This document shows, piece after piece, positions 10,484-26,578 of a stretch of 35,842 nt of DNA; the stretch's first letter is position 1; each line of letters begins with the position of its first letter. The translations under genes and the position numbers were made by a program. This DNA is from Secundilactobacillus angelensis (GTDB taxonomy: Bacteria; Bacillota; Bacilli; Lactobacillales; Lactobacillaceae), in assembly GCF_012641075.1 (NCBI RefSeq), contig NZ_JAAXLJ010000022.1, positions 1 through 35,842 of the forward strand, written 5' to 3'. Below the pieces are notes generated by a model that saw only the letters and a list, made by a program, of their open reading frames with translations, searched no databases and had not been told where the DNA came from.

Positions 10484-10489
10484 TATAAT
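10484..10489 (+). promoter_or_regulatory. Extended -10 promoter of Hol-Tox antisense RNA, cassette 1
   Basis: TGCTATAAT gives an extended -10 with no good -35. The same TGCTATAAT begins cassette 2 (19132-19140) and cassette 3 (26909-26917). Confidence 0.65.
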
Positions 10490-10495
10490 GGAAAC

Positions 10496-10621
10496 AGAAA
10501 AGGAAGCCCCGCCGAAAACAGGACTTCCCACGCAAGCCGCTTCAAAGGCGGTGGCATAATTACAAAACTATATTAATGTCGTCCCGTAACTCGCCAAAGT
10601 TATAATCGGGGCGGCTTTTTT
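10496..10621 (+). ncRNA. Antisense RNA of Hol-Tox type I toxin cassette 1
   Basis: Transcription from 10484-10489 would run to a terminator made of 10578-10586 and 10607-10615 followed by T 10616-10621. The RNA is convergent with the toxin gene and overlaps its 3' end and stop codon. Its 5' part carries a hairpin around GGCGGTGGC (to about 10556); the toxin mRNA leader, read on the other strand, begins with a near-copy of the same block. The design is that of type I systems with RNAs meeting at a bidirectional terminator. Confidence 0.7.
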
Positions 10622-10894: not shown

Positions 10895-12088
10895 TCAGCA
10901 AAACATCTTTTGTAGATACCCTTTTTTTAGTTCCTGGAGTTTTTCAAGCTTACGCTGATGAAGAGTGATAGTGTCATCAAGTTGTTTGAAGAAGGCACCG
11001 ATTTGTTTTTGTTCATCCTTGCTTGGAATTGCAAAGTCTGTTGAAGAAATGTTTTTCCAATCAGAACGCGGCATCTTTGTACCTGAAGTATTGTTTGCAA
11101 CTTTTTGATAATCATCTGATTGAATTAGGTAATAATCAAAGGACGGAACGCTAACATCAGTAGCTTCAAAAACCCAGAAATCACCCAATGCAACGCCTTC
11201 AAAATCAGGGAATAACCAATTTTTCAAATACGGACGAAGTTTCCCATACAAAATATTTTCAGATTCAAACAACGTGCCTTTTCGACTATCAAGTTTTGAT
11301 GAAATATCTTTGTTTAAGCGACCTTCTCCTGAGACAATATCCTCAAACTCAACTTTAGGTAAAACATCAGAATTTGAAGATTTATTCACTCGGTTCACAA
11401 TTTCAGTTAACTTACGCTGTTCCCAAGCGTCAGCAAACCCTGTAAATCTTAATTGCGGGAACTTGCTACCATTTTGGGGGAACATTTTTTGCAAATAGCC
11501 CTGTTTAAGTTCCTTAAGCTTAGCTAACTTACGCTGATGAAGGGTGATAGTGTTGTCAATTGATGAAAGAAAACGACCGACCACGACTTGTTCTCCCTTA
11601 GTTGTCGGAATGCAAATTGGGTAGTGTAAGAGATCAGAAGGCGTCACACGCTTCTGGCTATTTGAAGTGCCAGACGAAATAGACTGCAATTCACTTGTAG
11701 TCTTGTCTGATAAGAATAGCTGGTGAAGAAAACCAAGATCAATCTCAAAAGACTGAAATGGAACAAATTCACCTGACGCTACTGCATTTTCGGGGGCTTT
11801 CTTCACAAACCATATACGTCGTTGTCTTACATTCAGTTTATTGATCAGCAAAACCGTGCCAGATATTTTAAGTCGTGTACTCTGCATTGATTCGCCAAGG
11901 ACTCGATTTGGGCGCTTTCCTCGGTCGTAAGAAGGCATACTATATTCTACAAATTCACGGCTAGGTGTTAATTGCGGGTCAATGCTTTTACGAAGAATAT
12001 CACCAAGATCCCCCAACTTACGTTGTGCCCAAGGATCAGTGAAACCTTTAAATCTTAGTTGCGGATATTTAGCTTGTTTATCCTTCAT
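10895..12088 (-). CDS. hsdS: Type I restriction-modification specificity subunit HsdS
   Basis: A 397-residue subunit that selects the bipartite DNA target. It has the usual two target-recognition domains, each opening with the same block (LRFKGFTDPWAQRKL and LRFTGFADAWEQRKL) and each closed by a coiled-coil spacer (TLHQRKLAKLKELKQGYLQK and TLHQRKLEKLQELKKGYLQK). The start taken is the ATG at 12088, seven bases after GGAGG, which overlaps the end of hsdM by 11 bases; an ATG 27 bases earlier lacks a ribosome site. The repeated blocks would permit domain swapping by recombination, but no second hsdS copy or inverted half is present here. Confidence 0.93.
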   Translation of the reverse strand: MKDKQAKYPQLRFKGFTDPWAQRKLGDLGDILRKSIDPQLTPSREFVEYSMPSYDRGKRPNRVLGESMQSTRLKISGTVLLINKLNVRQRRIWFVKKAPENAVASGEFVPFQSFEIDLGFLHQLFLSDKTTSELQSISSGTSNSQKRVTPSDLLHYPICIPTTKGEQVVVGRFLSSIDNTITLHQRKLAKLKELKQGYLQKMFPQNGSKFPQLRFTGFADAWEQRKLTEIVNRVNKSSNSDVLPKVEFEDIVSGEGRLNKDISSKLDSRKGTLFESENILYGKLRPYLKNWLFPDFEGVALGDFWVFEATDVSVPSFDYYLIQSDDYQKVANNTSGTKMPRSDWKNISSTDFAIPSKDEQKQIGAFFKQLDDTITLHQRKLEKLQELKKGYLQKMFC

Positions 12089-13700
12089 TGTGAGCCTCCG
12101 ACTTTGACTGCTCATTCACCTGGGTGGCCACTAACTGGCTAGCTAATTCATTAAAGGCTTGTTCATTTTGACTGATTTTCTCGTCTAGTTGCTTTAGATC
12201 AGCTTTGACTTGGCCCAGATCAATCTCGGGTTCCGGTTCAAACGTATCGACATAACGCGGAATATTTAAGTTGTAGTCATTCTCCTTGATTTCCGCCGGT
12301 GAGGCCACGTGGGCATATTTATCGACATCTTGCCGGTTTTGATAAGTCGTCACAATTTTTTGAATATTGGCTACTGTTAGCTTATTTTGATTCTTGTCCT
12401 TTTCAAATTCCCGGGACGCATCAATAAATAAGACGTCGTCAGTGGTCTTGTGTTTCTTTAAAACCATGATCAATGTCGGAATACCAGTGGAATGAAAAAT
12501 ATTGGCGGGTAGTCCAATAATGGCATCAATCCGGTTATCCATTAGAAGCTTTTGGCGAATTTTGCCTTCCTTAGCCCCCCGAAATAGCACGCCATGGGGT
12601 AAGACGATGCCCATAGTTCCGTGCTCCTGCAGATGATAAAAGCCGTGTAGCAGAAAGGCAAAGTCGGCTTTAGATTTAGGCGGTAAAACGCCATAGTCGC
12701 GGAAGCGAGGATCAGACAAGCGTTTGTCACTATTATCCCAGTGTGCCGAGTAGGGTGGGTTCATAACAACCGCATCAAATAAGTAAGGTTCGTCAACCGG
12801 CCAATCTTTACTTAACGTGTCGCCATTGCGTAAGTGCATATCGTCATACGAGACTCCATGTAACATTAGGTTCATACGGGCCAGGTTATAGGTCGTGGTG
12901 TTCAATTCTTGACCATGGTAACTCACTAAACCCGGATTTTTCACGTGCTGTCCCACATTCAACAGTAGTGAACCGGACCCAACTGCTGGATCATAAATAG
13001 TTCGAACTTGGTGGTCACCCGCATTACGCTGATAAGTCACAATCTGAGCAATAATGTCGGACACCTGCCGCGGCGTGTAAAATTCCCCCGCCTTCTTACC
13101 AGAATCACTGGCAAATTGCGCAATTAAGTATTCATAGGCGTCACCTAAGACATCGCCTTGATGATGAACGAGGTCAATCGCATTCAAAGCTAACATAGTA
13201 TCACTAATGGTTTGGTTCCGTTGTTGTAAAGAACTGCCTAATTTATTACTACTTAAATCCACATCGGCAAACAAGCCCGAAAAGTCTTGCGCTGACGACA
13301 GATTTTGTGTCGACTGTTCCAGATCATGAAGTGCTTGAGATAAATCGTCTAACGCAAAAGTATGGGCTTGAATCTTGCCAATCAGAGTGGCGTACAACGC
13401 CTGGGGTTGAATTAAATAGCCGAGCGTATTTTGCAAATACTCAACTAAACTGGGCTGCACTGAGACGCCTTCCAACTCAAACTGCGGATCCATATACTGA
13501 GCATATTTCCGGGTGACATTTTCGGTTTCGCCTGCCCAATCACTAAAGGTCGTTAAGGTTTTCTCAGATAGAAATCGATAAAAAATTAACCCCAATAAAT
13601 AATTTTTATATTCAGAAGCGTCCATTTTCCCGCGTAAGACATCGGCCGCATTCCATAGGGCGCTTTCAAGTTGACTAGCTTGAGTTGTTTTTGCTGACAT
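12078..13700 (-). CDS. hsdM: Type I restriction-modification methyltransferase HsdM
   Basis: A 540-residue N6-adenine methyltransferase. The N-terminal helical HsdM_N domain covers about residues 1-160. GEFYTP (205-210) precedes the SAM-binding motif I DPAVGSGSLL (237-246) and the catalytic NPPY (314-317). Two HsdM with one HsdS form the modification enzyme; with HsdR they restrict unmodified DNA. Read from the minus strand the order is hsdR-hsdM-hsdS with a 13-base gap before hsdM and an 11-base overlap after it, so all three are one operon. All key motifs are present. Confidence 0.95.
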   Translation of the reverse strand: MSAKTTQASQLESALWNAADVLRGKMDASEYKNYLLGLIFYRFLSEKTLTTFSDWAGETENVTRKYAQYMDPQFELEGVSVQPSLVEYLQNTLGYLIQPQALYATLIGKIQAHTFALDDLSQALHDLEQSTQNLSSAQDFSGLFADVDLSSNKLGSSLQQRNQTISDTMLALNAIDLVHHQGDVLGDAYEYLIAQFASDSGKKAGEFYTPRQVSDIIAQIVTYQRNAGDHQVRTIYDPAVGSGSLLLNVGQHVKNPGLVSYHGQELNTTTYNLARMNLMLHGVSYDDMHLRNGDTLSKDWPVDEPYLFDAVVMNPPYSAHWDNSDKRLSDPRFRDYGVLPPKSKADFAFLLHGFYHLQEHGTMGIVLPHGVLFRGAKEGKIRQKLLMDNRIDAIIGLPANIFHSTGIPTLIMVLKKHKTTDDVLFIDASREFEKDKNQNKLTVANIQKIVTTYQNRQDVDKYAHVASPAEIKENDYNLNIPRYVDTFEPEPEIDLGQVKADLKQLDEKISQNEQAFNELASQLVATQVNEQSKSEAHNEG

Positions 13701-13713
13701 TGTTTAACCTCAC

Positions 13714-16700
13714 TTATTTTTGTAGATAGATTGCTAAATCGTGTTCAATAAACTGCCGCCAAGCGGCCTGGGACTTAATCCGGTATAGTGGCAAAATAGC
13801 TGGAATCTTCGGCCCAGTGGCAGTTTGAGCTTGTAAGGCCGCTGCTAAATTCGCTGACTGCGTTAATTCTTGTTCATGATGCCATTCATCAGTACCCACG
13901 GTGTGTTCACGTGCCACCCGTAATAGGGCTGCTTGATCTAAGCCCCACGTATGGGCAAAGGTCGTCGTTTTTTTGACCAATTGTTTCTGGGCGTAATCAG
14001 CCACCAACTCCCGAGCATTCAACGCTACTGGCGCTTGATTTGGGGTGCTCCGTTGCTGAGACTGTTGCATTTGTTGCTCAATATAAGGCATGGCTTCGCG
14101 AATTAACTGGGCCTGTTGCGGTTGCGTTTCCGCTAATTTATTCAAACTAGCCTGTACTTTGGCACTATTTTGCAGGTAATCGGTCATATGGGCTTGGGCT
14201 TGATCAGGCGTCGTGTACTGTTGCTGTTCATCAATCCAATCTTGAATTAATTGCGTCAAATAATCATAATCCACCAAGACGACTGAACCAACGGCTAGGG
14301 AAAAGTCTAAGGCAGCTAATTCTTCGGGGATTTTCTCAGGCTCTTGGTTAGTAACCGCCGCTTTAATCCGCAGATATTTACCCGTATAGGATTCTACTTC
14401 GGGCTGAGCGATACCAAAGGCCTTTTCACTGTTTTCCCAAGTGAAATCGTTGTACATCGATAAGGAATTCAATTGCTGATTCACTTGGCGAAAGGCTTTC
14501 ACAAACTGTACCTTGGCAGTGGTTCCTTTCAGGTCATCGGCCGCCGTCGGCGTTTGAGCAATGGCTTTTAAATCGACCACAGCCTTTTGAAATTTTAAGA
14601 CAGCCTGCTGATAAGTGGGACGAATGATGACATTAAAAGAGCCTTCGCCACTATATAACTTATAAGCTTCACGTTCATTCGCTTCCATGATTGCCGGCAC
14701 CCGAAAGGTCACAATTTGGCCTTCTTGTTTTAATTCCCGGTTTTGGAGCCGGTTGGTGCGTGAGTAGGCTTGAATAAGTTCTTGATAAGCTAAGGTGCGG
14801 TCAACAAAGAGCGTGTTTAGCCGAGGGGCATCAAAACCTGTTAATAAACGGCGTACGACAATCACTAAATTAATTTCCTGATCGGGTTGCAAATGAGCAA
14901 AGACCGCCTCACGCCGGGCAGCCCGTTTTGCGACATCTTCGTTATAGAGATTCAAATCGGCTAAATCAAAATTAGTGTGATACTGCTGATTATAATCCTT
15001 TAAAATGGTGGCCATTTGGTCATGTTTGTGCGCACTCTGATCTTCGTTTTCACTTAATGAATAAGTAATCGCAATTCGGGGCCAATCAGGATCTAGCTGA
15101 TTGTGAGTAGTCTTTTTCGCGGCTTTAAAGGCTTGATAATAGCGTTGCGCCATTTCAATGGAGCTGGTGGTTAAAATCGCATTGTAGTTGCCATGCCCCA
15201 AGCTGGTTTTACGTGGGCCTTTTTGTAAAATATATTGAACAACTTGTTGGATATGTTCATCAGTCTCAAAGTCAGCCGGAGTTAAATACGTTTCTTCCAA
15301 GTCCTTGACTGGCATCGCTTGAATCTTGGCTTGAATTTTTGCTTCATCAGCTGTACTCAGCAGGCGGCCTTGCTTATCACGACGCGCTTTGACGCGCTGA
15401 GTTTCTTTTTCGAGGGCCCGGGTTATCAACGTGTCTTTCCCAATCGTCGTTACGTGTTCCACGTTAAACGGTAACACGGCTTGGTCCTCTAAGGCGTCTC
15501 GTAAGTTATAAACGTGACAGACTTTACCAAATAGCTCCTCAGTCGTAACCGCTAGATCACCCTTGAGCTGTTTTTTATTTTCATTAAAGATGGGGGTGCC
15601 GGTGTAACCATACCAATTACTATTGACAAACGCGTCCCGAATTTCCTTTTGCATCTTACCAAACTGCGACCGGTGGGCTTCATCAACAAAGAAGATCACC
15701 CGTTGCTTTAAAGTTTTACTAAAGCGGGATTGCTTACCGGTTGCCAGCTGGGCTTGCGTTTTTTTGACCGCCCGATGAAGTTTTTGAATCGAGGTGACCA
15801 AGACCTTACCGTCATTTTGTTGCAACTTACGCATTAAATCACCGGTATTTTGGGCTTCGTTAATGGCAATATCATCATTGGCGGCATAGGCACTAAAGTT
15901 GCTGGTTGTCTGTTCGTCTAAATCCCGCCGGTCAACTAAGAAGATGACCTTATCGACACCGGGATCTTGCGCAGCTAATTTAGCGGTTTTATATGAGGTG
16001 AGTGTCTTACCAGAACCCGTGGTATGCCAAACAAAGCCATCTTGATGGTCATGAATCCGGTGCATCACGGCTTCAATCGCATAAATCTGATAAGGCCGTA
16101 AGAGAATTAAGCTCTGACGTTCTTGGTCGATGACCGTATATTCACTGACCATTTTGTGGGCCATGGGAATATTAAGGACTTGGCGCGTGAACGCTAAGCC
16201 GTTTTCCACGGGGTGATTATCCCGCGTCCGCCAATTAAACAAAAAAGCTTTATTGAAATGATCCGGTTCGGCATTCGCAAAATACGCCGTACTATCCGGC
16301 GTCATAATCACAAACATTTGCAACAGCGAGTAAATTCCCGTATATTTACCTTCCTGTGCGTATTTTTCAATTTGATTAAAAGCCTGGTTAAGTTCGACCG
16401 TGGCTTTTTTTAGTTCCAATTGAATTAAGGGTAACCCATTAATCAATAGGGTTACGTCAAAACGGCGATCAGGATCGACATCTTGAGTACCAGCTAACCG
16501 TGGTCGCACTGCTTGTCGGACCACTTCATAACTAGATTTACCGCCAGCGACGTCCGCTTTCCAAAATAACTCGAGTGTCACCGTGCCCAGCTTAGCATCA
16601 TCACGTTCAACTTCCACTTTGCCAATGCCATTTTCGGCGGCTAGTAACTTAGCTGCTTCGTAAGGTGTCCGGACCTCAATCGCCCGTTTAACTTGATTAA

Positions 16701-16881
16701 ATTCGGTATCAGTTAGGGGGTATCCCTGCAATTTAGCATAGTTATTGTTATTTAATTTATCACGAAAATTAGCCCATAATTGATCCGGGGTCGCACCATA
16801 CAGGTCTTTGCGTTCCACCCATTGATTGCTTCCAGTCGTTAAGGTTTTAACAACTTCTTTTTCAAATGACAGTTCCAACAT
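13714..16881 (-). CDS. hsdR: Type I restriction endonuclease/translocase HsdR
   Basis: A 1055-residue motor subunit, normal length for EcoR124-like enzymes. The nuclease domain has the PD-(D/E)xK residues in FDVTLLINGLPLIQLELKKA (D142, E156, K158). The SF2 translocase follows with Walker A TTGSGKT (287-293) and DEAH (400-403), then the late helicase motif around RRLLTGFDAPRLNTLFVDR. The C-terminal part is helical and binds the methylase core. AAGGA lies eight bases before the ATG. Upstream at plus 16923-16928 the minus strand has TATAAT as a likely -10. Nothing looks broken, so the system should be active; the ArdC-like protein nearby would act on restriction in other hosts. Confidence 0.95.
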   Translation of the reverse strand: MLELSFEKEVVKTLTTGSNQWVERKDLYGATPDQLWANFRDKLNNNNYAKLQGYPLTDTEFNQVKRAIEVRTPYEAAKLLAAENGIGKVEVERDDAKLGTVTLELFWKADVAGGKSSYEVVRQAVRPRLAGTQDVDPDRRFDVTLLINGLPLIQLELKKATVELNQAFNQIEKYAQEGKYTGIYSLLQMFVIMTPDSTAYFANAEPDHFNKAFLFNWRTRDNHPVENGLAFTRQVLNIPMAHKMVSEYTVIDQERQSLILLRPYQIYAIEAVMHRIHDHQDGFVWHTTGSGKTLTSYKTAKLAAQDPGVDKVIFLVDRRDLDEQTTSNFSAYAANDDIAINEAQNTGDLMRKLQQNDGKVLVTSIQKLHRAVKKTQAQLATGKQSRFSKTLKQRVIFFVDEAHRSQFGKMQKEIRDAFVNSNWYGYTGTPIFNENKKQLKGDLAVTTEELFGKVCHVYNLRDALEDQAVLPFNVEHVTTIGKDTLITRALEKETQRVKARRDKQGRLLSTADEAKIQAKIQAMPVKDLEETYLTPADFETDEHIQQVVQYILQKGPRKTSLGHGNYNAILTTSSIEMAQRYYQAFKAAKKTTHNQLDPDWPRIAITYSLSENEDQSAHKHDQMATILKDYNQQYHTNFDLADLNLYNEDVAKRAARREAVFAHLQPDQEINLVIVVRRLLTGFDAPRLNTLFVDRTLAYQELIQAYSRTNRLQNRELKQEGQIVTFRVPAIMEANEREAYKLYSGEGSFNVIIRPTYQQAVLKFQKAVVDLKAIAQTPTAADDLKGTTAKVQFVKAFRQVNQQLNSLSMYNDFTWENSEKAFGIAQPEVESYTGKYLRIKAAVTNQEPEKIPEELAALDFSLAVGSVVLVDYDYLTQLIQDWIDEQQQYTTPDQAQAHMTDYLQNSAKVQASLNKLAETQPQQAQLIREAMPYIEQQMQQSQQRSTPNQAPVALNARELVADYAQKQLVKKTTTFAHTWGLDQAALLRVAREHTVGTDEWHHEQELTQSANLAAALQAQTATGPKIPAILPLYRIKSQAAWRQFIEHDLAIYLQK

Positions 16882-17413: not shown

Positions 17414-17726
17414 GTGGCACCCGCTTTCGTTGAATCAGCTTTTGACTTGCCGGCCAACGTTCCCCAGTAAAGCCAACAAATTCGATTGTTAGTTTTATAT
17501 CTTGTCGTAATGCTTTTAGTAAATTTTCTAAATCAGCTAAATCATAGTTAGCTAATTTATGTAAGGGAACGGATTGCAAGCGCTCATTAGCCCGTTGACT
17601 GTTAAAAAACAGATTATAGGTCTGATCGTAGGTATCATTAGTCAACATTAACCAATAGCGGGTTTTGGGACGCCGCTTAAACAATAGGGTTAACCGCCCC
17701 TTAATAATCTCTATATCGCTATTCAT
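17406..17726 (-). CDS. Conserved small protein between umuC and yolD
   Basis: About 106 residues, starting at ATG 17726, eight bases after GGAGG; the in-frame ATG 15 bases earlier contains that ribosome site. The sequence has RYWLMLTNDTYDQTYNLFF and a regular helical middle (LADLENLLKALRQDIKLTIE). It overlaps umuC by 8 bases and the YolD-like gene by 8 bases, so it belongs to the operon. I do not recognise a characterised family. A role with the error-prone polymerase is suggested only by tight linkage. Confidence 0.75.
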   Translation of the reverse strand: MNSDIEIIKGRLTLLFKRRPKTRYWLMLTNDTYDQTYNLFFNSQRANERLQSVPLHKLANYDLADLENLLKALRQDIKLTIEFVGFTGERWPASQKLIQRKRVPLE

Positions 17727-19020
17727 AGCTATTGCCTCCATTATGTCCGCCCACTAGTGAAGCCCGCTTGATAGCGGTGCCTCCCTTTAATAAACTGGTC
17801 GCGTAAACTAGTTTGGTGAACCCAAATTGCCGGTGAATTTCATCAATCACCTGGTTTAACCGGCTATGGCGAATTTGGTTGCGCGGGGTTTCAAATAAAT
17901 TAAGTTGTTGGCCGGAGTTGGCACTTAGTTTACTGCTATAAACACCAATATTCCGGACAGCTTGACCGTCCCAATTCTGACGGAATAACCACAATAACTG
18001 TTGCGTCAAAACTTGATTGTCGTTAGTTGGTTCAATTTTTAAAGCTTGGTGAAAGCCACCGCGGCCATCTGCTTCGGCTGCGGCATAGGAAAACCCAATG
18101 CTTAGCGATAGACACCCCGCCAGTTTATGGTGGTGCCGAAGCCGCGCCGCCACCTGTTCCCCAATTTCTTTAATGACGGTTTCAATTTCGACTTGGTTAA
18201 AATAATCTCGTGGCAATACTTGCGAATTACCCAGGCTAGCTTCTTTAACCTTAGTTGGTTCCGTAACTTGCGCGCGATCAATTCCCCAGGCCGTAGCAAA
18301 TAATTGGCTACCAATGATGCCAAGTTGTTGTTTGAGTAAATAAGGGTTGGTGTGGGCTAGCTCATACATATTGTGAATTTGAAGCCGGTTCAAACGTTTC
18401 GCCATACGGGGGCCAATCCCCCAAACGTCCGTTAATTCAGTAATTGACCAAATTTTATCCGGCACCGTTTCGTAATGGATTTCACCGATCAATTCATGAT
18501 TATGTTTAGCGTAAAGGTCTAAGGCTAATTTAGCTTGAACCGGATTGTCACCAATCCCCACGGTGGTATACAAGCCTAGTTTTTGCCGAACTGTCTTTTG
18601 AATCAAGCGCGCCACTTCGCGAACGGAATTGCCAAACAGCCGCCAAGTATGGGTCATATCAAGAATGCTTTCATCAATCGAATACGGCCAAACCTCTTGT
18701 TCAGTGGTAAATTGATGAAAGATCTGATTGATCTGCAAATTACGTTGAATATAAAGGTTCATACGCGGTGGCACGACCCATAACTTGGAGTCATTGGGTA
18801 AGTCACGTTTACGGGAGACATTGGCTTTAAGATGAAATAAGTGCTTAGCTTCGGGTGACGTGGCTAAAATAAGCCCACCATTGGTATTTTCAGCTTCACT
18901 AAGGACCACTAACGGGACTTTTAAGGGATTAAGGCCCCGGGCAACGGCTTCGCAACTAGCATAAAAGGACTTGTTATCGATTAAGAAGAACACGCCATGC
19001 GGTTCATCATCAAAAAACAT
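17719..19020 (-). CDS. umuC: Y-family DNA polymerase, UmuC/ImpB-MucB-SamB type
   Basis: A 433-residue translesion polymerase that copies damaged DNA at the cost of mutations. The first metal-binding aspartate is in FFLIDNKSFYASCEA (D15); the second catalytic pair is in YSIDESILD (D116, E117). The helix-hairpin-helix region follows (ELTDVWGIGPRMAKRLNRL) and then the little-finger domain. The ribosome site GGAAGTGAT precedes the ATG. A near-perfect SOS box lies over the promoter upstream (19066-19079), so expression is damage-induced. A decayed copy of its 5' end lies at 26589-26801. Confidence 0.93.
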   Translation of the reverse strand: MFFDDEPHGVFFLIDNKSFYASCEAVARGLNPLKVPLVVLSEAENTNGGLILATSPEAKHLFHLKANVSRKRDLPNDSKLWVVPPRMNLYIQRNLQINQIFHQFTTEQEVWPYSIDESILDMTHTWRLFGNSVREVARLIQKTVRQKLGLYTTVGIGDNPVQAKLALDLYAKHNHELIGEIHYETVPDKIWSITELTDVWGIGPRMAKRLNRLQIHNMYELAHTNPYLLKQQLGIIGSQLFATAWGIDRAQVTEPTKVKEASLGNSQVLPRDYFNQVEIETVIKEIGEQVAARLRHHHKLAGCLSLSIGFSYAAAEADGRGGFHQALKIEPTNDNQVLTQQLLWLFRQNWDGQAVRNIGVYSSKLSANSGQQLNLFETPRNQIRHSRLNQVIDEIHRQFGFTKLVYATSLLKGGTAIKRASLVGGHNGGNSYE

Positions 19021-19079: not shown

Positions 19080-19146
19080 CTAAAAACTGCTAGAAAGCTG
19101 ATTAAAAATAGTCGAAAGTCCATTATAGTCATGCTATAATGTAGAC

Positions 19147-19270
19147 AGAAAAAGGAAGCTCCGCTAGAACAGGACTTCCCATGTAGAACCGTTTAAGACG
19201 GTGGCAAAGTTTAATATTAGATTAAATAATCCGTTAGCCCTGCCAAAAGCTAAGACGGATTATTTTTTTT
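19147..19270 (+). ncRNA. Antisense RNA of Hol-Tox cassette 2
   Basis: TGCTATAAT (19132-19140) would start an RNA that ends at the terminator 19225-19234 / 19255-19264 followed by eight T (19263-19270). It overlaps the toxin stop at 19260. Its 5' part has ACCGT/ACGGT and ends in GACGGTGGC. The toxin leader of the same cassette, on the other strand, also reads AAGACGGTGGC, whereas cassette 1 uses AAGG(G)CGGTGGC in both places. Confidence 0.7.
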
Positions 19271-19364
19271 GCTGACTTTTGATCAGCTCAACAATTAATG
19301 CAATTAAGGCTACGATAAAGGTACCGAAAGCCAGCATTAATTGTAAAGCGTCCGCAACGGACAC
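19260..19364 (-). CDS. Hol-Tox family type I toxin, cassette 2
   Basis: A 34-residue peptide starting with GTG eight bases after AGGAG. It reads MSVADALQLMLAFGTFIVAL and continues with a second hydrophobic stretch and a basic tail KSQQKK. The DALQLMLAFGTF segment is typical of the putative holin-like toxin family. It is clearly diverged from cassettes 1 and 3, so it has its own antisense partner. The promoter on the minus strand (19469-19498) touches the first codon of the divergent Pycsar effector. It lies between the SOS polymerase operon and the Pycsar genes. Confidence 0.8.
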   Translation of the reverse strand: MSVADALQLMLAFGTFIVALIALIVELIKSQQKK

Positions 19365-19468
19365 TTAGGCTACTCCTTTCGTTAGGATTTATGGGCTTTA
19401 AAGGTTTAACACCATAAGCACCACCTCCGATTGGAAATAGCCACCGTCTTAACTTTTCTACAAGCTCA

Positions 19469-19498
19469 ATTATACAAGAAGAGAGATGGACTAGGCAA
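19469..19498 (-). promoter_or_regulatory. Toxin promoter, cassette 2, abutting the Pycsar effector start
   Basis: On the minus strand TTGCCT (plus 19493-19498), an 18-base spacer and TATAAT (plus 19469-19474). The -35 ends on the A of the effector's ATG. On the plus strand a weak TTAACT (19449-19454), 16-base spacer, TATACA (19471-19476) could drive the Pycsar genes, overlapping the toxin promoter. Confidence 0.6.
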
Positions 19499-20040
19499 TG
19501 AACGATAATAATTGTGAAAAAACCAAGTATTTACAATATCTATTAGACAAGCAATTAGATTGGATACAAAAATCAGATACAAAAGCTTCAATCTTATTAT
19601 CAGCAATTGGGGTGTTATTTACTTTATTGATAAACTCTCGCTTCTATGGTGTCGTAGTAAATTGTATCCACTATCTTTTTATCAAAGATAAAATTTTTTT
19701 AACGGTACTTATTTTTTTGCTAGTAATTGGATTAATATTAGTCTTTATTGGTGGATTCTATTTATTCTTTACCCTTATACCTAGATTGAAAAACATTTCC
19801 CATCAACAATCCCACATTTTTTTTGGCGATATATCTCAAAATGGGCTAAACGAAATGAAAAATTACTTCTGCAAAGATTTTAATCCCAATGATGACCTAG
19901 TTAATCAAATATTTGTTAATGCCAATATTGCTGATACAAAAATGAAAAACTGCAATAATGGTATCAAATTTATATGTTTAGGCTTTGGGACAATTTTTCT
20001 AGTCACACTGATAGCATCTATTGGACTATCTATCAATTAA
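19498..20040 (+). CDS. Pycsar-type membrane effector (PycTM-like)
   Basis: A 180-residue membrane protein. Residues 20-45 read LDWIQKSDTKASILLSAIGV, the DxKAS pattern and first membrane helix of the Pycsar effector domain. Further membrane segments are at about 66-94 and 156-178, and IFFGDI (108-112) is also usual in the family. Known members are kept silent until a cyclic pyrimidine nucleotide binds, then damage the membrane and stop phage growth by killing the cell. The cyclase lies next, 23 bases downstream. The order effector-then-cyclase is the reverse of the best known E. coli example. The gene is AT-rich compared with the neighbouring hsd and umuC genes, which suggests transfer. The ribosome site is weak (GAGAGATGG region). 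Confidence 0.78.
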   Translation: MNDNNCEKTKYLQYLLDKQLDWIQKSDTKASILLSAIGVLFTLLINSRFYGVVVNCIHYLFIKDKIFLTVLIFLLVIGLILVFIGGFYLFFTLIPRLKNISHQQSHIFFGDISQNGLNEMKNYFCKDFNPNDDLVNQIFVNANIADTKMKNCNNGIKFICLGFGTIFLVTLIASIGLSIN

Positions 20041-20063
20041 TATGGAAGGACATGGAAAATAAA

Positions 20064-20864
20064 ATGGGAAATAGTAAATTTCTAAGTACAGCTGAAGATG
20101 TAATAAAAAAGATTCTAACAGATACAAATAAATTTGATCATCTGGATTACTTGCCTAGTTTAGATAACGCATTAAGTTACACTAATGGTGCTTACGTCAA
20201 AAATACCGCTTTTTTTATTGATATACGAAACTCTTCTAAACTGATTAAAAAAGAGGGATATGAAAGAAGAATAATAGCCAGATTTTATAGATCCTATATT
20301 AGCGAAATAATTGCAGTTTTAAGAAGTCATGAGTGTTGTAGGGAAATAAATATTGTTGGTGACTGTGTTTCAGCAATATTTGTTGAAAACAAAGATAAAT
20401 CAGGTGAATATAAAGACAGATCTGATGTTATAGAAGCTTTAGAATCAGCCTCTATGTTCAATCCTCTATTAGGAATAATAAATAATCTCTTTTCTAAGCA
20501 CTATAAACGAAGAATTGACATTAAAGCGGGCGTGGGTATTGCTACGGGCGAAGCACTGGTTATACAAGCTGGAGAAAAAGGTAGCGGTATAAATAAGCCT
20601 ATCTTTCTTGGTGACAACGTAAATACCGCTGCACACCTATGTGATAAAGCCAATAATGAAAATTATCCATATTTTACTTTGACCGATCAAAACGTTAAAG
20701 ACAATTGTAAAAGGTACATTGCTAATCTTGATAATCAAACATTTGCAGATTTTTTAGCTACACAATTTGCAACTGACGAAGGAAAATACTTCTATGGGGG
20801 AAACTTTTGGAGAATTCCATTTAACGATAGACTCAAAGAATTGCAAAATGATTGTAATTTTTAA
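20064..20864 (+). CDS. Class III pyrimidine-cyclase-like enzyme (PycC-like)
   Basis: About 266 residues with the class III nucleotide-cyclase fold. The first metal aspartate is in AFFIDIRNSSKL (D53), the second in INIVGDCVSAIF (D100). The motif FLGDNVNTAAHL (181-192) holds the transition-state asparagine (N187), but the arginine usual in VNxAAR is a histidine (H191). In Pycsar the cyclase makes cCMP or cUMP upon phage infection and so switches on the membrane effector encoded just before it. Which pyrimidine is used cannot be read here. The start is uncertain: GGAAGGA at 20044-20050 is 13 bases from ATG 20064 and one base from ATG 20052. The gene ends before a good terminator, closing a two-gene operon. 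Confidence 0.78.
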   Translation: MGNSKFLSTAEDVIKKILTDTNKFDHLDYLPSLDNALSYTNGAYVKNTAFFIDIRNSSKLIKKEGYERRIIARFYRSYISEIIAVLRSHECCREINIVGDCVSAIFVENKDKSGEYKDRSDVIEALESASMFNPLLGIINNLFSKHYKRRIDIKAGVGIATGEALVIQAGEKGSGINKPIFLGDNVNTAAHLCDKANNENYPYFTLTDQNVKDNCKRYIANLDNQTFADFLATQFATDEGKYFYGGNFWRIPFNDRLKELQNDCNF

Positions 20865-21864: not shown

Positions 21865-22815
21865 TTAGAAGTCATAGTCGCCGCTACTCATAGCTTCAGC
21901 ATTACCCATTAGATAGCCAGCACCAACTTGTGAAAAGAAATCATGATTGGCCGTTTCGGTTGAAATTCCGTTCATTACGATTGGGTTGATATCTTTAATC
22001 TCAGCATTGGGGAAGCGGGATTCAAAGCCCATATTTTGGAGCGCCTTGTTGGCGTTGTAGTGAACGAATTGTTTAACGTCTTCCGCTAACCCAATCGGCG
22101 CGTAAACTTCTTCGGTGAACGCAAACTCGTTCTCAAGGAGATCGTCGAGCAACTCATCCATCCACTTTTTGAATGTTTTTTGTTCAGTCGCCGATAGCTC
22201 GTTATATCCCAATTGAAATTTGTAGCCGAGGTAGGTACCATGAACAGATTCATCGCGGATCACCAGTTTGATAACTTCAGAAAGATTTGCCAGCTTATTG
22301 TTACCACGGTACCAAAGTGGGGTAAAAAAGTTGGTGTAGTACAAAATTCCTTCAAGAAAGACGCTTGCAACTTTCTTTTCAAGGTTGTTTCCCGTTTGAT
22401 AAATATCATTGATCCGTTTGGCTTTGTATTGCATTCTGGGATTATTGTTCATCCATTTGAATACTTCGTCAACAGTGGCTTGATCGTTCAAAGATGTCAA
22501 AATAGTGCCGTAGCTTTTGGCATGAATTGACTCCATCATCAAAAAGTCATTGAGGACTGCTGCTTCTTTTCGTGTCCGAACGTCGGGCCGCATCACGTCG
22601 ACTCCTTCTTCAGATTGGAGTGTGTCCAGCAAGGCTAATCCACCCACAACCCGATTGATAACCGATTTTTCGGTGCCAGAGAGTGTCCGCCAGTCCCGTA
22701 AATCATTAGAAACAGGTACTCGCGTATCCAGCCAGTATTGTGCCGTTGCTTTATCCCATACATATTCGTCAAGTTCGTCTTCGATGATGTCCCAATTAAT
22801 TGTTTTATAGCTCAT
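21865..22815 (-). CDS. nrdF: Class Ib ribonucleotide reductase small subunit NrdF (active copy)
   Basis: A 316-residue R2 subunit that carries the dimetal-tyrosyl radical cofactor and passes the radical to NrdE. All ligands are visible: D64 (LLDTLQ), E95 and H98 (MMESIHAKSY), E155 (FLEG), E189 and H192 (RDESVHG). The radical tyrosine is Y102. These sit three residues earlier than in E. coli NrdF. The tail ends DYDF, the part that docks on NrdE. It is the last gene of nrdI-nrdE-nrdF2-nrdF; AAGGAG precedes its ATG and it starts 14 bases after the nrdF2 stop. Regulation is from the NrdR boxes upstream of nrdI. Confidence 0.95.
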   Translation of the reverse strand: MSYKTINWDIIEDELDEYVWDKATAQYWLDTRVPVSNDLRDWRTLSGTEKSVINRVVGGLALLDTLQSEEGVDVMRPDVRTRKEAAVLNDFLMMESIHAKSYGTILTSLNDQATVDEVFKWMNNNPRMQYKAKRINDIYQTGNNLEKKVASVFLEGILYYTNFFTPLWYRGNNKLANLSEVIKLVIRDESVHGTYLGYKFQLGYNELSATEQKTFKKWMDELLDDLLENEFAFTEEVYAPIGLAEDVKQFVHYNANKALQNMGFESRFPNAEIKDINPIVMNGISTETANHDFFSQVGAGYLMGNAEAMSSGDYDF

Positions 22816-22829
22816 TAGTTGAATACTCC

Positions 22830-23756
22830 TTAAAAGTCGTAGTCGTCATCGGTCATTTTTTCGGTGTCCGATTCATTGTTTGCAGCCGTTACCTGTTGCA
22901 AAAATTGATTTTGGTCAATCATCAGTTCTTTGAGTTGCGCCACTAGTGAAGACGGTTGAACTTCGTAGACAGCGTTAAAGCCAAGTGACATTAATGCATG
23001 ATTGGCACCATAGGAGGCCAGATTGATGGCTTCGGTGGCATCGTCAAGGTTAGCTTCTAAGAAGTCTTTTTCAGTTTGCATGAGTTGATCAAACTGTGTA
23101 TTAATCCAATACTGCAGTTCGGTTTGATCACTTACAGTGAGTTCTTCAAATCTGAGGCGAAATTTGTAACCAATATAAGCACTAAAAAGGGCGCTACCGC
23201 GGAGAATATTAGCCAACATTTGGTAAGTATTGACGAGAGCCTGTGTTTGAAGTATTGTCCAGTATTTACCAAACGAGAGCCCAGTTTCAGTCAGAATAAA
23301 AAGGGCTTTTTTCTGTAAGGCCATATCGCTAGTGCTCATTTGGGCTAGTTGGTCAATTTCAGCTTGCAGATTGGCATTATCATCTGCCCAAGTAAAACTT
23401 TCACCGCCGTTACCCGGAATCAGAGCCCGGAAAATGGTCGTACAGCTTTTGGCATGGACTGATTTCATAAAGGTAATGGTGTTTAATACGGATTCTTCTT
23501 GTTGAGTTCGCCGATCGTGGCGAATAGCAGGGGTGCCAACTTCTGATTGGTAGACGGCTAACATTGATGTACCTGCCAACATACGAGTAATGGCCTGTTG
23601 TTGAGTATCTGATAGCTGTTGCCAAGCCGTTTGATCATTCGTGATGGGAATCCGAATGTCCAACCAAAAGTTAGTGGTGAGTCGTTCCCACATGTATTTA
23701 TCGAAATTATCTTTAATATCATCCCAGTTAATTGCTTTGTAGTATAAATAGTCCAT
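22830..23756 (-). CDS. NrdF-like protein lacking metal ligands and radical tyrosine (NrdF2)
   Basis: A 308-residue homologue of NrdF encoded between nrdE and the normal nrdF. Aligned with that neighbour, the opening WDDI..MWERLTTNFWLDIRIPITND and the GYKFRL block are well kept. The cofactor site is not: D64 becomes A67, E95 becomes K98, E189 becomes S188, H192 becomes F191, and the radical Y102 becomes C105 (FMKSVHAKSC). Only H101 and E157 remain. The C-terminal DDDYDF docking tail is kept. The frame is intact, so the gene is under selection but cannot hold the usual cofactor. A helper or heterodimer role, as for yeast Rnr4, is a reasonable inference. AAGGAGA is rather far (about 13 bases) from the ATG. 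Confidence 0.9.
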   Translation of the reverse strand: MDYLYYKAINWDDIKDNFDKYMWERLTTNFWLDIRIPITNDQTAWQQLSDTQQQAITRMLAGTSMLAVYQSEVGTPAIRHDRRTQQEESVLNTITFMKSVHAKSCTTIFRALIPGNGGESFTWADDNANLQAEIDQLAQMSTSDMALQKKALFILTETGLSFGKYWTILQTQALVNTYQMLANILRGSALFSAYIGYKFRLRFEELTVSDQTELQYWINTQFDQLMQTEKDFLEANLDDATEAINLASYGANHALMSLGFNAVYEVQPSSLVAQLKELMIDQNQFLQQVTAANNESDTEKMTDDDYDF

Positions 23757-23862: not shown

Positions 23863-26031
23863 CTAGATCATGCATGATTCACATTCATTTGCCGTTTTAA
23901 TTTCATCGTCTTCTGTAAACGTTCGAATGTAATAAAGTGACTTAATGCCTTTTGTCCAGGCGTAATTCCGTAACCGGTTAAGGTCTCGGGTTGTCATCTT
24001 TAAATTGTTATTGTCCTTCCACTCGTAAAGGTCAGGTTTCAAAACTGAACGCATAAATAGTGTCAGACTCATGCCTTGATCAATGTGCTTTTGAGCTACG
24101 GCATAGGTGTCAATAATTTTTCGTTGATCAATATCATATGCGGGTGTGTAGTAAGGCAAAGTTTCGTTAGACAGGTAAGGTGCTGGATAGAAGATTGAGC
24201 CTACCTTATTTTCCTGACGTTGTTCTACTAATTGTGTGATTGGATGAAGTGATGCACTTGTTTCATTGACGTACGAAATTGACCCGTTCGGTGCCACAGC
24301 GAGTCTATTACGATGATAAAGGCCGCCAGTAATCACAGCTTGCTTGAGTGCCTTCCAATCTGTAACAGATGGTAATTTAATATTTTTGAAGATTTTTGCA
24401 ACTTTGGTACTCTTAAATTTAAAGTCTGCGTTCAAGTATTGATCGAAGTAACTGCCATCAGCGTACTTTGATTGGTCAAATTTAGCGAAGGTTTCGTGGC
24501 GTTCACGGGCAATTCGATTGCTCGTAACGAGTGAATAGTAGTTTAAAGCTAGGAAGTAGGCATCAGTAAATTCAAGGGCCTCTGGTGAGCCATACTCAAT
24601 TTGGTGGCGTGCAAGGGCAGTATGCAGACCCATAGCCCCTAATCCAATCGTGTGGTAAAGTTCGTTACCATGTTTAACAGTCGGTACTTCCTTAACATCG
24701 GTTGTGTCAGTTACGAGGGTGAGCGCACGAACAGCAACCTCAACTGAGTGACCGAAGTCCGGCGAGTCAATCATATTCATGATATTAGTTGATCCGAGAT
24801 TACATGAAATATCGGTGCCAATTGTCTTGTACGATAGGTCATCATCAAGTTTTGACGGTTCTTGAGGCTGTAAGATCTCACTACAAAGGTTACTCATAAT
24901 AATTTTGCCATCGACAGGGTTAGTTTGGTTGGCCGTATCAATGTTCAAGATGTAAGGATAACCAGATTCTTGTTGGAGTTGAGAAATCTTTTGTTCTAGT
25001 TTCCGCGCGTTAAAGACTGACTTCTTAATATTGGGGTTAGCGACCATGTTGTTATATTCTTTGGTGATATCGATGTAAGCAAATGGCGTACGATATTCAC
25101 GTTCGACATCATAGGGGCTAAAAAGATACATTGGTTCGTTAGTCTTGAGTAATTCATAATATTTATCAGGAACAATCAAACCGAGGGACAAGGTCTTCAC
25201 CCGAATTTTTTCGTCCGCATTTTCCTTTTTGGTATCCAGAAAATGTAAGATGTCAGGATGGAAGACGTTGAGATAAACCACTCCGGCGCCGTTCCGTTGC
25301 CCAAGTTGGTTACTGTAGCTAAATGAGTCTTCAAGTAACTTCATCACTGGTACAACGCCAGACGAGGCGTTGGAAATCTGCTTAATAGGATCACCTGAGG
25401 CGCGCAAGTTTGACAGGTTAACGCCGACGCCCCCACCGATTCGAGATAGTTGAAGGGCAGAATTAACGCCACGTCCAATTGAGAGCATGGAATCGGCCAT
25501 ATCAATTAGGAAACACGACACCATTTCTCCGCGGCGCTTTTTCCCCGCGTTGAGGAAAGTGGGAGTGGCGGGCTGGTAACGCTGTGAAATTAATTCATCG
25601 GCAACGTCATTAGCAAGTTGCTCATCACCGTTTGCAAGGTAGAGAGCATTGAAGACAACACGGTCGATAAAACCTTCCAAGAATTGTTGTCCGTCGTTGG
25701 TTTTCATGGCGTACTGTGTGTAAAACTTGTACGCCCCGAGAAAGCTGCGGAAATGGAAGTGATGGTCTTTCATTCGGTCGAACAAGGACCGCACAAATTC
25801 GTGGGAATACTGATTCAAGATATCTGGATCAATGTAATCTTCGTCGACTAAGTAGTTTAATTTGGCATCCAATGAATCAAATTGTTTAGTCTTTGGTTCG
25901 ACCGTCTCTTCAAAATAGGCCTTGAGGGCTTCTTGATCATAATGTAGCGGAATTTCTCCGTTGCTTGGGATATTTACGAGGTTATTTAAGTAAAAATAGG
26001 TATTTTCCATTTCTGGGGTGCTAGTTACCAT
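23863..26031 (-). CDS. nrdE: Class Ib ribonucleotide reductase large subunit NrdE
   Basis: A 722-residue catalytic subunit that reduces ribonucleoside diphosphates to deoxy forms. Active-site residues are present: redox cysteine C173 (EMVSCFL), the thiyl-radical cysteine with its neighbours in SNLCSE (N381, C383, E385), the partner C410 (ISCNLGSTN) and the C-terminal shuttle CESC (C717, C720). Length is normal for NrdE and the N-terminal ATP-cone of NrdA is absent, as usual for class Ib. AAGGAG lies eight to nine bases before the ATG. It follows nrdI by six bases. No nrdH glutaredoxin gene is in the operon; reductant must come from the chromosome. Confidence 0.96.
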   Translation of the reverse strand: MVTSTPEMENTYFYLNNLVNIPSNGEIPLHYDQEALKAYFEETVEPKTKQFDSLDAKLNYLVDEDYIDPDILNQYSHEFVRSLFDRMKDHHFHFRSFLGAYKFYTQYAMKTNDGQQFLEGFIDRVVFNALYLANGDEQLANDVADELISQRYQPATPTFLNAGKKRRGEMVSCFLIDMADSMLSIGRGVNSALQLSRIGGGVGVNLSNLRASGDPIKQISNASSGVVPVMKLLEDSFSYSNQLGQRNGAGVVYLNVFHPDILHFLDTKKENADEKIRVKTLSLGLIVPDKYYELLKTNEPMYLFSPYDVEREYRTPFAYIDITKEYNNMVANPNIKKSVFNARKLEQKISQLQQESGYPYILNIDTANQTNPVDGKIIMSNLCSEILQPQEPSKLDDDLSYKTIGTDISCNLGSTNIMNMIDSPDFGHSVEVAVRALTLVTDTTDVKEVPTVKHGNELYHTIGLGAMGLHTALARHQIEYGSPEALEFTDAYFLALNYYSLVTSNRIARERHETFAKFDQSKYADGSYFDQYLNADFKFKSTKVAKIFKNIKLPSVTDWKALKQAVITGGLYHRNRLAVAPNGSISYVNETSASLHPITQLVEQRQENKVGSIFYPAPYLSNETLPYYTPAYDIDQRKIIDTYAVAQKHIDQGMSLTLFMRSVLKPDLYEWKDNNNLKMTTRDLNRLRNYAWTKGIKSLYYIRTFTEDDEIKTANECESCMI

Positions 26032-26037
26032 TAGGGA

Positions 26038-26496
26038 TTACTCCTTCGTTGTTTGAAAACAAAATTGATTGCGATAGGTTAAGATGGCATCGGCAATGCG
26101 AGGAATGTCGTGTGCGGTGCCACGTAGCTCAAAATCGGTAATGTAAGGAAAATCGAAGTGTTTAGCATATTGTTTAGCCGTGAGTGCAAACTGCTTATTA
26201 AAATTACGATTACCGCTACCGATAATACCGTAGCAATGCTGGTAATTGCCTTCGTACGCGAGGTAATCTCCCAAAATAGTGGTTAATATTTCAGTATAAC
26301 CGTTATTAACCCCATTACCACCTTTAAGAAAGGCTGGTAGGAAGGTAACAAACGGCTGGTCAAGAGTGGTGAATTCAGGGTGTTCTTTAACATTAATTGA
26401 ACTAACCCGAACATGACGTTCTTTCTCAAAGTATGTTGTCAGTCTGCTAATAAAATATTTCGTGTTGCCACTCAAACTGATGTAGAGAATATTTAT
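26038..26496 (-). CDS. nrdI: NrdI flavodoxin-like protein; start codon appears to be ATA
   Basis: NrdI supplies the oxidant that builds the Mn-tyrosyl cofactor of NrdF. The frame has the FMN loop SLSGNTKYFI, then FLPAFLKGGNGVNNGYTEIL and GIIGSGNRNFN, all typical. The first beta strand NILYIS is coded upstream of the first usable start codon (TTG 26475), so starting there would destroy the fold. Reading further upstream gives ATA-AAT-ATT-CTC, that is x-NILYISLSGNT, with the expected ATG replaced by ATA at 26494-26496, just after GGAA. Either a rare ATA start is used, expression is low, or one base is wrong. With this start the protein has 152 residues, normal for the family. First gene of the nrd operon. 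Confidence 0.85.
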   Translation of the reverse strand: MNILYISLSGNTKYFISRLTTYFEKERHVRVSSINVKEHPEFTTLDQPFVTFLPAFLKGGNGVNNGYTEILTTILGDYLAYEGNYQHCYGIIGSGNRNFNKQFALTAKQYAKHFDFPYITDFELRGTAHDIPRIADAILTYRNQFCFQTTKE

Positions 26497-26522: not shown

Positions 26523-26578
26523 TTTCTATATATAGTGGTTAGACGATCATTGTAGCACTATATGTGGTGTCTATGCAA
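26523..26578 (-). promoter_or_regulatory. nrd promoter with two NrdR boxes
   Basis: Two 16-base palindromes of the NrdR type (consensus ACACTATATATAGTGT) are centred at 26530.5 and 26562.5, 32 bases or three helical turns apart. Between them the minus strand has TACAAT preceded by TGC (plus 26549-26554) with TTGCAT 18 bases upstream (plus 26573-26578). NrdR is an ATP/dATP-sensing repressor, so the plasmid operon should answer to the host's nucleotide pool. Confidence 0.8.

Follow-up and report, generated by a model that had tools for sequence, protein, structure and literature searches.

The class Ib ribonucleotide reductase (RNR) operon of a probable Lactobacillaceae plasmid encodes two NrdF-type small subunits, one intact (NrdF) and one (NrdF2, hereafter F2) that represents a real, conserved family labelled as an ordinary RNR subunit in the records examined. 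RNR makes DNA precursors. Judging from the residues it has lost, F2 should be catalytically dead, able neither to make nor to pass on a radical. The most likely explanation, next to which decoy and transient-chaperone roles are possible, is that it pairs with NrdF. We are moderately confident that the class Ib small-subunit dimer is here an NrdF-F2 heterodimer, in which NrdF is the activated half and F2 a dedicated half without catalytic function. In addition, we lean towards a broader proposal, i.e. that Lactobacillales have a distinct, mobile class Ib RNR subtype with an obligate NrdF-NrdF2 heterodimer, composed of a radical-making protomer with a degenerate arm and a dead protomer that gives the arm and a second NrdE tether, which would have arisen once and spread on plasmids and chromosomes.

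The window, i.e. the whole stretch of 35,842 nucleotides that was analyzed, makes up a single contig (35.8 kb) in a Lactobacillaceae genome of 2.6 Mb. It encodes a RepA_N replication gene and a MobA/MobL relaxase, and is therefore most likely a plasmid. The operon, in the order nrdI-nrdE-F2-nrdF, lies on the minus strand (Table 1). It is not the sole class I RNR of its genome, since a further NrdF-type gene, the third, is found on another contig beside nrdE and ORFs that by eye resemble ribosomal protein genes; the same possibility was rejected for three other genomes (G460, G493, and G439), each with a further NrdF elsewhere. The window also contains a type I restriction-modification set with specificity, methyltransferase, and restriction subunits (10895-16881, minus strand), a gene for a Y-family (ImpB/MucB/SamB) DNA polymerase near the RNR operon (17719-19020, minus strand), and a Pycsar-type anti-phage pair identified by PADLOC, in which the ORFs of a PycTM-like effector and a PycC-like cyclase overlap by 67 bases (19498-20864, plus strand). 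Rfam matches above the gathering score comprise two to the RatA antitoxin RNA and one to the sRNA rli28, at 19137-19226 (+), 10486-10577 (+), and 19298-19484 (-).

Table 1. Features of the RNR operon, in window positions
Feature	Position	Strand	Remark
NrdR-box-like site further from nrdI	26556..26569		32 bp start to start from the other
NrdR-box-like site nearer nrdI	26524..26537		
nrdI, flavodoxin-like activator	26038..26475	-	145 aa; TTG start per ORF listing, true start may differ
nrdE, class Ib catalytic subunit	23863..26031	-	722 aa
nrdF2 (F2), NrdF paralogue without metal-site and radical-path residues	22830..23756	-	308 aa; ATG start, no internal stop
F2 residues 3-11, YLYYKAINW, conserved N-terminal arm	23724..23750	-	
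A67 codon, replaces metal ligand D64	23556..23558	-	never D in 30 F2
K98 codon, replaces ligand E95	23463..23465	-	
C105 codon, replaces radical tyrosine Y102	23442..23444	-	Y in 19 of 30 F2
G187-S188-A-L-F191 codons, replace D188 (radical path), E189 and H192 (ligands)	23184..23198	-	
C-terminal docking tail DDDYDF of F2	22833..22850	-	
nrdF, intact partner NrdF with all six ligands and tyrosine	21865..22815	-	316 aa

An initial annotation of this DNA, made from the sequence, had described F2 as an intact frame with an R2 core and a DDDYDF tail, and this holds as assessed by the 308-aa frame, the Pfam match, and alignment with the adjacent NrdF. The same alignment contains all five changes that it had listed, namely the loss of four of the six metal ligands (D64 to A67, E95 to K98, E189 to S188, and H192 to F191) and of the radical tyrosine (Y102 to C105). 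Only H98 and E155 (NrdF numbering) are kept, which gives the ligand string AKHESF. That list, right for the window, had missed three further losses, D188, Y301, and N261 (NrdF numbering), which are common to all 30 family members described below. By profile, F2 is an R2 protein in Pfam (PF00268, 142.3 bits versus a cut-off of 33.6) and matches eight NCBIfam models, under the cut-off of each. With the NrdF model TIGR04171, it scores 190.8 bits, below the cut-off of 355 expected of an active NrdF and passed by its neighbor NrdF (430.3 bits). An AlphaFold model of F2 displays the all-helical R2 fold (mean pLDDT 88.2), its eight best matches in the PDB are NrdF chains (TM-score 0.81-0.84 by query length), and the nearest solved relative by sequence is Streptococcus sanguinis NrdF (PDB 4n83, E 2.1e-51). 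A second model, of one of the least altered F2 (L126), has a mean pLDDT of 85.0.

From the logic of the alignment, we take D188 and Y301 to be the equivalents of Escherichia coli NrdB D237 and Y356, and the NrdF equivalences to E. coli D237, W48, and Y356 are all assumed in this way. Y356 is an established radical-transfer residue on a flexible tail and D237 is part of the water network of that path (PMC11482829). N261, together with K257, Y160, and position 156, matches residues described as lining the channel from NrdI to the metal site in Bacillus cereus R2b (PMC9462851).

To define the family signature, we compared 30 F2 genes from Lactobacillales, which were chosen rather than drawn at random and are related to each other, with 43 NrdF. 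The 30-operon set leaves out near-identical operons (L023-L029, L032, L037, L039, L083-L087, and others), the duplicates L090 and L092, and the broken loci L093 and L094. D64, D188, Y301, and N261 are absent in 30/30 F2 and present in 43/43 NrdF, all of which also have Y102 and the full six-ligand set. In F2, the D64 position is A, S, T, N, or Y, the D188 position is G or N, position 189 is S, N, E, or T and never K, and the N261 and Y301 positions are never N and Y, respectively, several F2 carrying a tyrosine elsewhere within the last 45 residues. E155 is kept in 27 of the 30, whereas W28 and the tail residues D, Y, and F are kept in all of them. Position 102 is Y in 19 F2, C in five, V in three, and T, I, or F in one each. 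The tyrosine loss reported by the initial annotation is thus real in the window and in 10 other F2, and is not a family trait. The ligand string AKHESF is that of the window's group (9/30), SENEEH and AENEEH are found in the F2 of Lactococcus/Enterococcus plasmids, and AEHEEH, the least altered string (7/30), keeps five of the six ligands as well as the tyrosine. Since the further ligand losses differ among lineages, the common loss is that of the radical path, N261, and D64, and not that of the tyrosine. A cysteine radical at position 105 was rejected as a family mechanism, since the residue is C in only 5/30.

Because D64, D188, Y301, and N261 are lost throughout, F2 should be unable to make or pass a radical. 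Compared with an active class Ib R2, F2 retain the helical fold and the C-terminal tail, lack the complete six-ligand set, and never have the radical-path pair D188 and Y301 (0/30, versus 43/43 NrdF). We considered whether F2 might itself be active with a novel cofactor or radical. The five ligands and tyrosine of the AEHEEH members speak for such an enzyme, but the missing D188 and Y301 equivalents in 30/30 and the six different residues (Y, C, V, T, I, or F) found at position 102 make it very improbable.

F2 and intact NrdF travel together. A ligand-depleted R2 paralogue lies beside an intact R2 in 30/30 operons of the set and in 15/15 genomes with F2 in a sample of 395 genomes of the order. 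When these 395 genomes were searched with a partner-NrdF profile, the 15 genomes scoring 596-683 bits were the same 15 that have F2, which is directly upstream of the partner NrdF in each of them. The next five NrdFs score 520-532 bits, and all five have nrdE directly upstream and no F2. Gene order is nrdI-nrdE-F2-nrdF in 29/30 operons. The exception is G635 (L123, 4882-7399), where nrdI-nrdF2-nrdF lie on a contig of 2.2 Mb, preceded by an ORF that by eye is Crp/Fnr-like, and no nrdE was found within the 12 kb covered. At that locus, therefore, F2 follows NrdF rather than NrdE. The gap between F2 and NrdF is 9-122 nt in 27/30 operons and 225-950 nt in three Lactococcus/Enterococcus operons, as measured to the start codons used, some of the Enterococcus/Lactococcus partner NrdF starts being trimmed at a later ATG. 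In one of the duplicates (L090, Enterococcus faecium plasmid CP033377.1), a thiol peroxidase gene (7316-7807) lies between F2 and nrdF. Together with msrA and a Crp/Fnr regulator, both annotated close by, this gene hints at an oxidative-stress context.

A maximum-likelihood tree of 73 rows (30 F2, 30 partner NrdF, and 13 other NrdF) places F2 in one clade (support 99/98) and partner NrdF in another (100/100). Branches within the F2 clade are long, and joins between such branches drew a warning from the tree tool. The initial annotation had proposed to look for a clade with the same A/K/S/F/C substitutions always next to a normal NrdF. The clade exists, beside one intact NrdF clade, but the exact pattern is found in only 4/30 F2 rows. 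The two clades divide into matching subgroups, a pattern that suggests that F2 and NrdF have been inherited jointly from a single origin, and F2 and NrdF distances correlate at 0.954 over the 30 operons. Plasmid spread accounts for part of the relatedness among genomes and operons, and these counts are therefore not independent. Two F2-less class Ib operons (L133 and L134, in G673 and G646) encode NrdFs that rank with the highest-scoring relatives of partner NrdF from beyond its clade; their NrdI frames are short (129 and 130 aa), and the G646 NrdF starts with MTFLHYKAID, close to the F2 arm.

F2 is constrained by purifying selection but changes faster than NrdF. Indeed, the median pairwise Nei-Gojobori dN/dS of F2 is 0.146, compared with 0.037 in NrdF. 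A few of the 43 pairs used are unreliable; five are far apart and close to saturation (0.58-1.04), and two are so similar that they differ by few changes (0.55 and 0.33). The selection check proposed in the initial annotation thus gave a non-neutral value, and the outcome it had associated with decay, i.e. neutral rates and no orthologues with a conserved pattern, is not what is seen in this monophyletic family. That F2 is a decaying duplicate carried by plasmids is accordingly hardly credible. It would fit the faster change of F2 and the few broken copies that exist, but runs against purifying selection and monophyly, on which grounds we rejected plasmid decay for the family, against the intact frames of the 30 operons analyzed (L093 and L094, both broken, are outside the set), and against an arm and tail that are invariant over sequences only 26-30% identical to the window's. 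The broken copies are on plasmids CP120657, where F2 aligns in two pieces under two annotated features, and NZ_PP589796, where it also aligns in two pieces, and there are fragments in the E. faecium plasmids AP026629 and NZ_CP066660. In the latter (L094, NZ_CP066660.1, 3500-4324), nrdI is followed by the F2 fragment with no nrdE between them, and an IS30 transposase gene comes just after.

The distribution of conservation along F2 would fit a heterodimer. As assessed by mean pairwise identity in 16 representative operons, F2 is overall much less conserved than NrdF (0.35 versus 0.73). The C-terminal tail is equally conserved in the two proteins (0.60), loop 30-37 is high in both (0.86 and 0.95), and residues 84-93 are slightly more conserved in F2 (0.68-0.72 versus 0.63-0.69), a further departure from the overall pattern, beside those of tail and arm, that tempers the argument below. 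The N-terminal arm, residues 1-16, has an identity of 0.69 in F2 versus 0.37 in partner NrdF, the latter value being lowered by shorter or partly trimmed starts. The motif L-[YH]-Y-x-A-[IV]-N-W is present in 30/30 F2, and this arm, like the tail, is invariant across F2 that share only 26-30% identity with the window's. In the 13 other NrdFs, the arm Y is found in 13/13 and the A in 11/13, whereas partner NrdFs have the Y in 12/30 and the A in 0/30, even when trimmed starts are re-read with up to ten upstream codons. As the sequences read, the dimer arm has been kept by the putative dead subunit and has degenerated in its active partner. In one solved NrdF dimer, the monomers are described as swapping N-termini (PMC6754363), and the argument from the arm combines this one published description with conservation. 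A kept arm in F2 and a degenerate one in its partner would be as predicted by an asymmetric heterodimer and hard to explain by separate homodimers, although F2 might form homodimers instead.

We infer heterodimer formation, one radical per dimer, and a tethering role of F2 from these patterns, and propose the following mechanism. NrdF and F2, made from one operon, would pair as a heterodimer in which the F2 arm packs on NrdF. NrdI would activate the NrdF half alone, which would hold the metal-tyrosyl radical, and the radical route to NrdE would run through W28, D188, and Y301 of NrdF. F2 would give a second C-terminal tail, docking on the second NrdE of the NrdE dimer. Possible benefits of F2 include stability, radical protection, or altered regulation. 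In a class Ia RNR studied by cryo-EM, the small-subunit dimer is reported to engage one catalytic subunit at a time (PMC11482829), therefore one competent half could suffice.

Upstream of nrdI, 27/30 F2 operons have paired NrdR-box-like sites spaced 31-32 bp start to start. In a rough control by mononucleotide shuffling, at most one of 200 shuffles was as good in each of these 27 operons. No clear pair was found in L079, L080, and L082, nor upstream of nrdI in the F2-less L133 and L134; in the same control, 11 shuffles were as good for L079 and nine for L082, and none for L080, whose pair is low-scoring, lies inside the nrdI frame, and was not counted. The NrdR-like pattern alone gives six matches over the whole window, no more than chance, and a promoter and terminator scan gave no more sites than shuffles. 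Taken as 16-bp boxes, the paired sites leave a 15-16-bp spacer, as described for Listeria monocytogenes, Streptomyces coelicolor, and E. coli (PMC12051234). Paired boxes with the usual spacer suggest that F2 is probably co-expressed with the enzyme under the usual RNR repressor.

The initial annotation had proposed that F2 is a chaperone, a regulatory subunit, or a decoy for NrdE. The evidence instead favors a structural partner of NrdF in a putative heterodimer. As a regulatory decoy, an F2 homodimer or monomer would fill the docking site on NrdE via its tail and throttle the enzyme. Such a protein would be expected to keep its docking tail, as seen in 30/30 F2, in which the radical-path tyrosine preceding it is gone, and could well sit in an operon with paired NrdR-like boxes (27/30). 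A decoy, however, needs little beyond the tail, yet the R2 core, the dimer arm, and the pairing with one NrdF clade are conserved, and G635 keeps F2 and NrdF without a linked nrdE; we consider this role unlikely. We also doubt that F2 is a transient assembly factor, which would help NrdF fold, load manganese, or meet NrdI, and then leave. The position of F2 directly before nrdF with nrdI nearby, the two or more metal ligands left in every one of the 30 F2, and the description of yeast Rnr4 as needed for correct R2 folding (PMC3267527) are all in its favor, but it gives the kept NrdE-docking tail no obvious use and does not sit well with the loss of the NrdI-channel residue N261 in 30/30.

F2 is found in many lactic acid bacteria and is often plasmid-borne. 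A protein at least 60% identical to F2 is encoded in 165 of 441 matching plasmid records, and each of the best 60 rows listed has two places in the record, which correspond to F2 and NrdF in the records opened. A further 43 full-length F2 records come from a second plasmid lineage, in Enterococcus and Lactococcus, and five from an Enterococcus faecalis type. For partner NrdF, tallied separately from F2, 216 of 325 matching plasmid records reach at least 60% identity. Among genomes, F2 is present in 26/397 Lactobacillaceae and in at least 15/395 of the order (residues were checked in the best-scoring matches), in some cases in chromosome-sized contigs such as those of G104, G163, and G378. At thresholds under which distant members might escape, two samples of the class (398 and 396 genomes) gave neither F2 nor partner NrdF outside Lactobacillales. 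A phage origin was rejected, with no phage record reaching 60% identity among 593 matching records; one IMG/VR contig carries F2 and may be a plasmid.

In the plasmid records examined, F2 is called an RNR beta subunit. Counts of nrdF taken as active enzymes would therefore overcount radical-making subunits on these plasmids. In Lactobacillus pentosus MP-10, a plasmid operon with matching gene order and lengths is tabulated as having two ordinary beta subunits (PMC6662855). Among the matches listed from the open-access literature, we found no description of a radical-less NrdF beside an active one, so that a bacterial NrdF-NrdF2 heterodimer is provisionally new as far as this literature goes. 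If our explanation is correct, the class I R2 of these bacteria would be heterodimeric, and the enzyme would be one that naturally works with a single radical. A symmetric dimer offers little means of telling whether its two R2 protomers act in alternation or independently. An RNR in which evolution has disabled one of them would put the asymmetric, one-side-at-a-time model seen by cryo-EM (PMC11482829) to a natural test.

Comparison with known systems places F2 apart from each of them. Class Ib NrdF, as in S. sanguinis (PDB 4n83), has the same fold, but all ligands, the tyrosine, the radical path, and the NrdI-channel asparagine are present in 43/43 NrdF rows, whereas no F2 has the complete set. 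Class Ie R2 (QSK and VPK types) resemble F2 in being derived from class Ib NrdF with substituted metal ligands (PMC11846895), and R2e structures match the F2 model. However, as described, R2e keeps the aspartate and the tyrosine (as DOPA) and is a working R2, whereas F2 loses the aspartate (30/30) and in 11/30 the tyrosine, mostly keeps E155, and accompanies an intact NrdF. At the positions of glutamates 95, 155, and 189, which we inferred from the spacing of D112, Y150, and K237 in PMC11846895, class Ie has V/Q, P/S, and K, and F2 has E155 in 27/30 and never K at 189. We therefore rejected a class Ie identity on the residues at ligand and tyrosine positions, in agreement with the initial annotation. 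Apicomplexan R2_e2 (PMC3824934), which exists alongside a canonical R2 and is described as a second type in which the residue at the radical tyrosine position varies, shares both properties with F2 but is a eukaryotic clade, whereas F2 groups with bacterial NrdF. The best-fitting parallel is the one named from the start, yeast Rnr4 (beta-prime), like F2 an R2 paralogue without metal ligands beside a functional R2 in the same genome, which is described as the cofactor-less, inactive half of Rnr2-Rnr4 (PMC3267527 and PMC3824934). Rnr4 is a eukaryotic class Ia protein, whereas F2 derives from bacterial class Ib NrdF, with which it groups by profile and in the tree of 73 F2 and NrdF rows, lies in an operon with nrdI, and would be a putative heterodimer subunit. 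If it is one, bacteria have reached the yeast solution too.
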